Assembly: GCA_024276275.1 (NCBI GenBank)
Contig: JAJRXM010000049.1
Location: forward strand, 62,001 to 126,000
DNA from: Candidatus Zixiibacteriota bacterium
GTDB lineage: Bacteria > Zixibacteria > MSB-5A5 > GN15 > FEB-12
Length of the DNA stretch: 64,000 nt
Direction of reading: 5' to 3'
Shown: positions 35,523-38,937 of the stretch, piece by piece
How the letters are laid out: each line of letters starts with the position of its first letter
Position numbering within the stretch: position 1 is the stretch's first letter
Made by a program: the position numbers and the translations under genes
Notes under the pieces: generated by a model
The model's input: the letters and a program-made list of their open reading frames with translations, nothing else
Databases searched by the model: none
Told to the model about the DNA's origin: nothing

Positions 35523-36620
35523 CTAAAAATCAAATACTTTTCGATTTTCGGAATCCGCGGTTTTTCTGAAGTCCCATTTGTTTTCCAGCCGCAGAACTCC
35601 ACGAGGGCAGACATGGGCACACATTCCACAACCGACACAAGATGCTCGTTTGAAAGATTGGTTGGTTTGTGCATACGCACGTACATCAATACCCATCTCG
35701 CAGTATGTTGAACAGTTACCGCATGAAATGCACATTTCATCTTTGACAGTTATACGGAACCGTCCGAATTTCTGTATTAATCCGAGCAAGGCAGCCATCG
35801 GGCAGAAGAACCTGCACCAGACTCTGCTTCCCATAAGAGGATAGAGTCCAACCCCAAGGACACCCGAGAGCATAGCAACAACTAAAAACTGATAGGTTCC
35901 TTGCACTTTCGAGGCAATCAAATCAAATGTTGCATAGTCTGTCACCCACTCACCTGCTGTATTTTCATAGTGCATACCCCAGTTTATAATTACTAAGGCT
36001 GTCGAAAGAATTGCCAACACAAGAACCGTATGGATTGAAACTTGTTCAAACTTCCATGCTTTGACTCGTTTGTCAGAAAGCTGTCGAAATGAATCTCCTG
36101 CTGTCTCGGCAAGTCCGCCGCAACCGCAGACCCAAGAACAATACCATCGTTTGCCGTAAAGAAGAGTTAAAATCGGAACTGCGATTAATGAACCGACAAA
36201 AGCATAGACAATTATTAAAATTGGGTAATCAAAAATATACTTTGGATTAAACAGCTCAATACCCAACGGCCAGAACTTGGCAAAATTGAATCCCTTGGAC
36301 TCAAACATCCCCATAATTTCAGGGATTGAAAAGGCAAAAACAACCTGCATAAATATAAGTGTAAAAGTTCGAAATTTTTGATAGCGACTGTTGCCGTGAG
36401 TGTTAATGAAATATAACCCACCGGCTATGATAGCAATTGTATAAAGAACTCCGTACAGATTCCATTTACTTTCAAGGCCGACCAGATGAGCCCAACTGTC
36501 GGGGATATTTGTAAAATATATCAGCAGATAAAATGCGAATAACAATAAAGAAAGCACCCAGGCAATGATACCTTTTGATTTAAGAGAGCTTTTATATGTA
36601 GACATTAATCCGGTTTGCAT
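35523..36620 (-). CDS. Membrane 4Fe-4S ferredoxin protein (NapH/CcoG-like)
   Basis: This 365-residue protein has about five N-terminal to central membrane helices and the NapH-type cytoplasmic Cys motif GKRWYCSWVCGCGGLAE. A second CxxxC-type element is VWCRFFCPM. The C-terminal domain holds two 4Fe-4S clusters: MCISCGNCSTYCEMG and SCVGCGMCAHVCPRG. This is the NapH/RdxA/CcoG-like polyferredoxin design, moving electrons between quinol/NADH and periplasmic reductases. It is 13 nt downstream of an FAD/NAD oxidoreductase gene, with which it probably works. Confidence 0.88.
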   Translation of the reverse strand: MQTGLMSTYKSSLKSKGIIAWVLSLLLFAFYLLIYFTNIPDSWAHLVGLESKWNLYGVLYTIAIIAGGLYFINTHGNSRYQKFRTFTLIFMQVVFAFSIPEIMGMFESKGFNFAKFWPLGIELFNPKYIFDYPILIIVYAFVGSLIAVPILTLLYGKRWYCSWVCGCGGLAETAGDSFRQLSDKRVKAWKFEQVSIHTVLVLAILSTALVIINWGMHYENTAGEWVTDYATFDLIASKVQGTYQFLVVAMLSGVLGVGLYPLMGSRVWCRFFCPMAALLGLIQKFGRFRITVKDEMCISCGNCSTYCEMGIDVRAYAQTNQSFKRASCVGCGMCAHVCPRGVLRLENKWDFRKTADSENRKVFDF

Positions 36621-36633
36621 ATATTTTCCTCCC

Positions 36634-37890
36634 TTAAGATACTTGTTTATTCAGTTTGAATTGCGGCATAAACTCTTCATCATAAAGAGCCTTATGCAGA
36701 TGGTCCAGCACCCAAGACAAAGTTCGTTTCTCATCTATCCATTGCACAAGTATCCGATGGTCCCACCTTCGCCCAAGCATGTTAAATCCTACGACTTTGT
36801 TATCAGGAAGATACGTTATACGAACGGTGTTGTGAGTTCCTTCTTCTTGAGAGTAGAAATTTTTCTCTCCATCTAAATTAAAATTTACAAGTCCCGCAGT
36901 TGTGTATTCAATATCAAAAAACTTTGCCGAGTTATAGAAAGTTCCTCTTTTATATATTTTTTCCATCCCAAATAAATTTGCGGCAGCGATTTTTCCTTGG
37001 TCACGACCGGTATACCAAAGTTGTTCGGGACGACGGACATTGTTGAACCATATTACCGAGGCACAATCACCGGCAGAATAAATATCGGTACAGTTCGTTT
37101 GCAAATACTCATCAACTATTATCCCACCACGTTCATCCATGGTAACTCCCGAATCTTTTAACCAATCGGTTTGAGGTCGCACACCAACTGCAATAACCAC
37201 TAATTCACAATCAATAATTTCTCCGTCACCTGTTTTAACACCGACAACTTTACCGTCTTTACCTAGTATCTCTGCAAATGCAGTTTTGAGTCTGAGATCA
37301 ACTTTATGATGCTTCATATGTTCTGCTATTATCGTGCTTTCAGTCTTATCAAGAGCAATCGGCCAGTAGTAATCTTCACGAACCAAAAATGTTACATCAA
37401 TCCCTGCTTGTAGAAGAACTTCGACAGTTTCAATTCCTATTAAGCCGCCACCTACAACGACTGCTTTTTTTGCTGTTTTTGATTTTTCTTGGAGCCATTG
37501 TAAGTTTTGCCAAGTAACAAAATTGCCGACACCGTCTAAATCTTGTCCCGGCCAATTATACATAGCAGGAACAGCCCCACAGGCGATTAATAATTTATCA
37601 AAAGAAATAGTTTCGCCTTTTTCCAAATAGAGCTTATTTGAGTTGGTGTCTAATTTCGTTACTTTATCATTTACTCGTTTGAAACCCATTTTTTCATAAT
37701 GGTCTCGTTCAAACGGTTCAACACATTGTTCACTTAATTGCCCGCAAAAAACATACATAAGGGCTGTGCGACTGAAATGATGTTCTGATTCATAAGAGAT
37801 AATTGTAATTTCGGCATCTTCGTCATAGTTCCGAAGAGAGTTGGCAGCATTTATTCCTGCCACCCCGTTACCGATTATGACATAGTGCAT
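36634..37890 (-). CDS. FAD/NAD(P)-dependent oxidoreductase (pyridine nucleotide-disulphide class)
   Basis: This 418-residue protein has MHYVIIGNGVAGINAANSL (FAD Rossmann), KAVVVGGGLIGIETVEVLL (NAD motif, near residue 142), RPQTDWLK and IYSAGDCASVIW. The last is the second FAD motif. It resembles rubredoxin/ferredoxin reductases and the N-terminal domain of nitrite reductase large subunits; there is no redox-active CxxC. Together with the downstream membrane 4Fe-4S protein it makes an NAD(P)H-to-membrane electron route. It starts 75 bases after the DUF3179 gene on the same strand. Confidence 0.86.
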   Translation of the reverse strand: MHYVIIGNGVAGINAANSLRNYDEDAEITIISYESEHHFSRTALMYVFCGQLSEQCVEPFERDHYEKMGFKRVNDKVTKLDTNSNKLYLEKGETISFDKLLIACGAVPAMYNWPGQDLDGVGNFVTWQNLQWLQEKSKTAKKAVVVGGGLIGIETVEVLLQAGIDVTFLVREDYYWPIALDKTESTIIAEHMKHHKVDLRLKTAFAEILGKDGKVVGVKTGDGEIIDCELVVIAVGVRPQTDWLKDSGVTMDERGGIIVDEYLQTNCTDIYSAGDCASVIWFNNVRRPEQLWYTGRDQGKIAAANLFGMEKIYKRGTFYNSAKFFDIEYTTAGLVNFNLDGEKNFYSQEEGTHNTVRITYLPDNKVVGFNMLGRRWDHRILVQWIDEKRTLSWVLDHLHKALYDEEFMPQFKLNKQVS

Positions 37891-37965: not shown

Positions 37966-38937
37966 TTAATGAATTAGCTCCGTGTCTGAGAAAAAGGAAA
38001 TCCAGGCAAACCAAAATGAAGTAACAACAGGTACGGAACTAAATGTATATAACTTACTTTTGTTCACTTTGTCAGAAAGTTTCCCATCTATTAGTTTATA
38101 ATCTGTTTCATAAGCTGCTATAGTTTCACTTTTATTGTCGTATACAACTAGTATTGTTGAAGCACCTGATTTAAAAGCATATTGACCGTTCTTAATCAGA
38201 TAGTCTTTGGAAACAGCTACAATTTTATCACCGTGTCTTATTCCAAAAACCAACTCTTTACCACCAAGTTTATTGAATGTATCGGCTCGGTTAAAGATTC
38301 CAAACTTCGTACTGTCTTCCATATATTTTTTATAATACGAACCGGCAATTCCGATAGTATCTTTTTTCAACATAAGTCCTTTAGGATATTGTTTTTTGAA
38401 TTCAGAAAATGTCGAATGTGAAAAATTATTAAACATCGTAAGTTTTTTACTTTTCAAATCCCCTTGAATTGCTTCGCCGGTTATTTGAGCCCAGAGAGAT
38501 TGGCTTTCAATATCTTGCATGACTAAGGCATCCTGCCATAGAGAACCCGATGCTTGGAAAGTGTGACGAACAGAGTCAACCGTTGCGGTATACACGATAC
38601 CGGTATAACAAAGCGGTCACCATGTGACAGTAATTGCTTTACCGTTGATATAATCATTTACAACTTCATGTTGGTCTAAATGCCAAATAGAATATGCTTT
38701 GGCTTTATTGCCGTCAGCTACAACAATAAGCGGTTCGTTATCATAGTAAAGAGACTCTGCCTCTTTTATTGAAATAAACTGAGGATCAAAAATCGCAGGT
38801 ATATCTCCCGGTTTTAACAGAGTATACATAGTATGCCCCATGATTTCAGTCTTTTTCGGTTCCGGACGTTGAGCAAAAACCGATGATGATACAACCGTGA
38901 TGATACAGAATGCTGTTAATAACTTTTTTGCAAACAT
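37966..38937 (-). CDS. DUF3179 protein with in-frame TGA at a conserved Cys codon (selenoprotein candidate)
   Basis: This secreted or periplasmic protein has a signal peptide (LTAFCIITVVSSSVFAQ). Up to codon 106 it matches DUF3179: GDIPAIFDPQFISIKEAE, then IWHLDQHEVVNDYINGKAITVTW. Codon 107 (38617-38619) is TGA. The same frame continues PLCYTGIVYT... and QASGSLWQDALVMQDIESQS, LWAQITGEAIQG, all in register with the family. DUF3179 proteins normally have VTYCPLC here, so TGA replaces the first Cys of the CxxC. A stem-loop lies 15 nt downstream. Total 323 residues. Its function is not known in the family. The selenocysteine reading is an inference, and a plain nonsense mutation is the alternative. 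Confidence 0.75.
38580..38616 (-). promoter_or_regulatory. SECIS-like stem-loop directly after the TGA codon
   Basis: On the minus strand GGTAT (38601-38597) and ATACC (38591-38587) pair perfectly around the loop CGTGT. The lower stem pairs CCG/CGG and TTG/CAA with small bulges. The loop starts about 20 nt after the TGA, inside the 16-37 nt range known for bacterial SECIS elements. The pairing is visible; activity is not shown. Confidence 0.45.

Follow-up and report, generated by a model that had tools for sequence, protein, structure and literature searches.

The SECIS element of Escherichia coli fdhF has a small loop that starts with G and then U, an N1-N2 pair, and a position about 20 nt after the UGA. 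The model of bacterial SECIS elements (bSECIS) has a loop of 3 to 9 nt, an upper stem of 4 to 16 bp, a spacing of 16 to 37 nt from the UGA, and a minimum free energy (MFE) of -7.5 kcal/mol or lower (PMC13188914, Fig. 2), with a G at the first or second position of the loop and a loop mostly of the form N1-G-[G/U]-N-N2, in which N1 and N2 are paired (PMC13188914). As far as the available text of two reviews from 2022 and 2026 goes, both include DUF3179 (pfam11376/PF11376, motif UxxC/T) among the predicted selenoprotein families and credit its discovery as a selenoprotein to Zhang and Gladyshev 2007, in the delta symbiont of Olavius algarvensis (PMC9312934, PMC13188914). The initial annotation of the locus reported here, which was aware of no earlier description of a DUF3179 selenoprotein, is corrected by these listings (DUF3179, PF11376, UxxC/T; PMC9312934 and PMC13188914).

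The locus lies in the window, by which we mean the whole analyzed stretch of 64,000 nucleotides from a Candidatus Zixiibacteriota bacterium, and comprises the following features.

38937..37966, minus strand: candidate DUF3179 selenoprotein gene, ATG (38937) to TAA (37966), translated with TGA as U
38869..38937, minus strand: signal-peptide-like N-terminus, MFAKKLLTAFCIITVVSSSVFAQ, read from the sequence
38619..38617, minus strand: in-frame TGA, codon 107, first position of U-P-L-C
38602..38586, minus strand: core of the putative SECIS hairpin, six-pair stem CGGTAT/ATACCG, loop CGTGT (38596..38592)
35526-37890, same strand, after the selenoprotein gene: genes for a membrane 4Fe-4S protein and a pyridine-nucleotide-disulphide oxidoreductase

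With the TGA translated as one residue, the gene encodes a protein of 323 amino acids with Sec at residue 107. The minus-strand translation agrees with the earlier description of one DUF3179 gene in frame on either side of a single TGA, and the TGA does replace the first Cys of the CPLC motif (VTW-U-PLC in the window). Both flanks, which had been described as matching DUF3179 in register, were recovered in one PF11376 match (E=2.8e-59, residues 45-319, profile positions 3-292 of 292) that runs across codon 107; its score of 201.4 bits against a gathering cutoff of 27 places the protein in DUF3179 across the domain. An NCBIfam scan of the protein gave no real match. Leaders like its signal-peptide-like N-terminus occur in orthologues, and the protein is probably exported or secreted.

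When 133 genomes of the phylum were searched, 28 of them yielded strong matches, 29 in all, and every match contained exactly one TGA. The 30 orthologous genes that were read comprise the 27 loci read first, in which the TGA stands in T-W-U-P-L-C, a second copy in one genome (L079, with the TGA also in U-P-L-C), a locus with the motif A-W-U-P-L-C (L048), and the orthologue of an Acidobacteria metagenome-assembled genome (MAG) with the same TGA in U-P-L-C (L083). The alignment of homologues called for in the initial annotation gave a uniform answer: a TGA stands at exactly the position of codon 107 in 30 of 30 orthologues, Cys is found there in none, and U-P-L-C is retained throughout. These genes span several families of the phylum Candidatus Zixiibacteriota in addition to the Acidobacteria MAG, TGA-bearing homologues elsewhere having been found in 28 phylum genomes and that MAG.

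The stem-loop noted downstream of the TGA is present as CGGTAT-CGTGT-ATACCG, with GGTAT beginning 15 nt and the loop 20 nt past the TGA. Its geometry agrees with that of the bSECIS model (loop of 5 nt, stem of 6 bp, G at loop position 2, spacing of 20 nt), and model and hairpin alike have G then U at the start of the loop and a flanking N1-N2 pair. Compared with the fdhF element and the bSECIS model, the stem sequence differs, and the upper stem in the window is without a bulge. Among 29 sequences, 98.5% of the cells in the six-pair stem and the loop pair N1-N2 are paired, and the hairpin has a covariation score of 0.298, compared with a mean of 0.122 for shuffled data; none of 500 shuffles reached 0.298, and slid registers all scored far below it. 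RNAalifold, unaided, recovered the same six stem pairs. In nearly all 29 sequences the loop reads C-GU-G-U or A-GU-U-U, the bases at N1 and N2 varying in concert (16 CG, 11 AU, 2 unpaired), and across orthologues the hairpin sits at a fixed distance from the TGA. The addition of six lectin-type genes (see below) gave a covariation score of 0.650, with five of seven pairs changing on both sides. Synonymous constraint is strongest in the gene at codons 112-117, which is exactly the hairpin, and nowhere else in the gene are synonymous sites frozen. The covarying loops, CGUGU and AGUUU, provide naturally occurring SECIS variants with which SelB binding could be tested.

The window hairpin is among the thermodynamically weaker ones of the orthologues, its core having -4.6 kcal/mol. 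The MFE is -5.3 kcal/mol for nt 12-45 and -11.6 kcal/mol for the first 48 nt after the TGA, the latter in another fold, which is the structure preferred when these 48 nt are folded alone (z = -1.25). The threshold of -7.5 kcal/mol is reached by many orthologues and missed by some. We weighed the comparative evidence for a SECIS element above the weak folding of the single sequence. At the gathering threshold, Rfam had no match in the window, which is uninformative for so short a hairpin.

The selenocysteine machinery that the initial annotation had proposed to look for was found in the genome to which the window belongs, which encodes tRNA-Sec, SelB, SelA, and SelD. SelA scored above the cutoff in 117 of the 133 phylum genomes, and selenocysteine use looks nearly universal in Zixibacteriota; with SelA in nearly every genome of the phylum, finding it is uninformative as regards the DUF3179 gene. 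With the machinery in the genome, the TGA invariant in 30 orthologues, and the hairpin conserved and covarying, the original call of a selenoprotein is upheld, and those proposed refutations that could be run (machinery, codon in relatives, stem-loop conservation) all favored it. From these sequence comparisons we estimate a probability of about 95% that UGA codon 107 of the window DUF3179 gene is recoded to selenocysteine. SelB and tRNA-Sec would decode this codon as Sec, and the hairpin inside the coding sequence, with its loop from 20 nt downstream, would direct the decoding. With this clade of orthologues, the prediction of DUF3179 as a selenoprotein family is well supported.

The initial annotation had also cautioned that four other genes in the window have in-frame stops that are not at Cys, a count that calls for correction. 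Stops within genes were borne out for guaA, rnr, and maeB (names assigned by reading their protein sequences), and the other same-frame junctions, at 616, 23956, and 40123, each separate two neighboring genes. The in-gene stops are located as follows.

4844: in-gene TAA of guaA
57239: in-gene TAA of rnr
51133: in-gene TGA of maeB

The selD gene, on another contig (L018), has an in-frame TGA of its own that is common to three congeners and also an in-frame TAA that is private to this assembly. Because the orthologues found in the same genus do not have the guaA, maeB, and selD stops, these are probably assembly base errors or strain lesions. Other genes of the genus have stops as well, namely, a TAG in the gene for an Fe-S membrane protein (L062, 7538-8632), a TGA in selA of G059 (G059:C64:9741-11075), and a TGA plus a TAG in a glutaminase-like gene (G000:C28:20501-21064).

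Given that its own assembly does hold private stops (the TAA of guaA, the TGA of maeB, and the TAA of selD), the TGA of the DUF3179 gene might itself be thought to have arisen in an ordinary Cys gene, through a mistake in sequencing or assembly or through a nonsense mutation of the strain. Whereas those stops are private, the DUF3179 TGA occurs in every orthologue read, 30 of 30 from many independent assemblies, together with a covarying hairpin; because all orthologues share the TGA, this reading is refuted, and we regard it as exceedingly improbable. Mechanical open reading frame finding, on the other hand, splits the gene into a 106-amino-acid exported peptide and a 209-amino-acid fragment from an internal GTG, and where UGA is taken as a stop, such genes appear truncated or split, as the plain list of open reading frames here shows. 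That there are in fact two genes, or a pseudogene, is very improbable, given that a single Pfam domain spans both halves, that distant relatives are split at this very codon, in each case where paralogues have Cys, and that dN/dS is low on both sides of the TGA. Downstream of the TGA, dN/dS is about 0.10-0.12 against two congeners, at a dS that is high and near saturation, and by this measure purifying selection acts on the part beyond the TGA.

Within the wider family, all 47 sequences have either Cys or Sec at the TGA column, Cys being found in the paralogues and in L084. The tree groups these sequences into a Sec clade of 30 genes (support, 0.99), a lectin-type clade of 7 (1.0), and a Cys clade of 10 (0.94). 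Residues kept in all 47 include, besides C/U itself, the P that follows it and, in window numbering, E91, S130, G131, D142, and W149. Some of the same genomes also carry Cys-form DUF3179 paralogues, mostly with CPLT, as does the genome of the window (L058). These paralogues share with the Sec form the domain and the conserved residues around the site but differ in having a Cys codon, Thr at the second position, about 30% identity, and a separate branch in the tree. In the genus g15 (L059, L073, L077, and L079), Sec-form and Cys-form (CPLT) DUF3179 genes occur side by side.

Seven more genes in five genomes (L051-L056 and L089; genomes G045, G079, G088, G018, and G094) encode DUF3179 with a TGA at the same column within longer Lectin_C and/or dockerin proteins, three of the seven having been scanned against Pfam. 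Their hairpins differ in stem sequence and have the same loop at the same distance from the TGA. In contrast to the window protein, these are long multidomain proteins that match the DUF3179 profile over its first half only; none of these genes was found in the window genome. The motif in this clade is UPLQ, UPLK, UPLR, or UPIA, with no second Cys, forms that are not covered by the reviews' UxxC/T motif. Because the second Cys is absent here (UxxQ/K/R/A), the first position of the motif appears to be the essential one.

The initial annotation took the motif for the usual UxxC design of bacterial selenoproteins; the motif itself stands, whereas the mechanism it implies became doubtful, with the second Cys dispensable elsewhere in the family. 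A UxxC selenenyl-sulphide/dithiol redox switch fed by the neighboring FAD-disulphide-type oxidoreductase would fit the retention of U-P-L-C in all 30 clade genes and the pyridine-nucleotide-disulphide oxidoreductase that adjoins in the window and in close relatives, and in the available text of one review, thiol oxidoreductases account for many of the predicted UxxC selenoproteins (PMC9312934). We consider such a switch possible at somewhat less than an even chance, since the Cys paralogues are mostly CPLT and the lectin/dockerin proteins also lack the second Cys, which makes that position dispensable in the family, the modeled fold is predicted to be mostly beta and not thioredoxin-like, and the oxidoreductase neighbor is not kept in more distant relatives. 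Elsewhere in the family T, Q, K, R, or A can stand in for the second Cys, whereas every sequence read has Cys or Sec at the first position; for this reason, single-residue chemistry or a metal-ligand role seems somewhat likelier than a CxxC dithiol switch, at close to even odds. In our reading, the protein would be exported, and its Sec selenol would act as the reactive moiety of a redox or nucleophilic site outside the cytoplasm, perhaps with reductase- or peroxidase-like chemistry. Strict conservation of Sec and a dispensable second Cys single out the residue to test.

The redox genes that had been noted beside the selenoprotein gene are present in the window, but the trio of selenoprotein, 4Fe-4S protein, and oxidoreductase is kept only in close relatives (two congeners, L061 and L062, and also L081) and not in more distant ones; the neighbors say little on function and were set aside as a functional clue. 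The AlphaFold model of the window protein is fairly confident (pLDDT, 84; pTM, 0.81) and mostly beta. A profile search of solved structures found no relative of the protein, and Foldseek against the PDB returned nothing at an E value of 0.001 or below. A NirD/Rieske likeness was partial and of low probability (3c0d; probability, 0.57; TM score by target, 0.43), and some Rieske oxygenases appeared in Foldseek at a TM score of about 0.2; neither was taken as evidence.

As far as the review tables describe it, the DUF3179 protein of the Olavius algarvensis delta symbiont belongs to the same Pfam family and has Sec at the same motif position in the UxxC form. The family was thus already known as a predicted selenoprotein family, of which the window gene is an unusually well-supported further member. 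The genes described here come from Zixibacteriota and one Acidobacteria MAG, and they have a covarying SECIS element. In the available text of one paper that names both Zixibacteria and selenocysteine, no mention of this DUF3179 protein was found. What is added here is the occurrence in Zixibacteriota, the evidence from covariation, and a lectin/dockerin clade that has Sec and lacks the second Cys; this clade lies outside the window and is the addition likeliest to be new. We tentatively propose, as a conjecture that is more doubtful than not, that DUF3179 is an extracytoplasmic family with a single selenol or a Sec-ligated metal, one Zixibacteriota branch of which has placed the domain in large lectin/dockerin proteins with Sec and no partner Cys; if so, this branch would add a new class of selenoproteins, secreted or at the cell surface.
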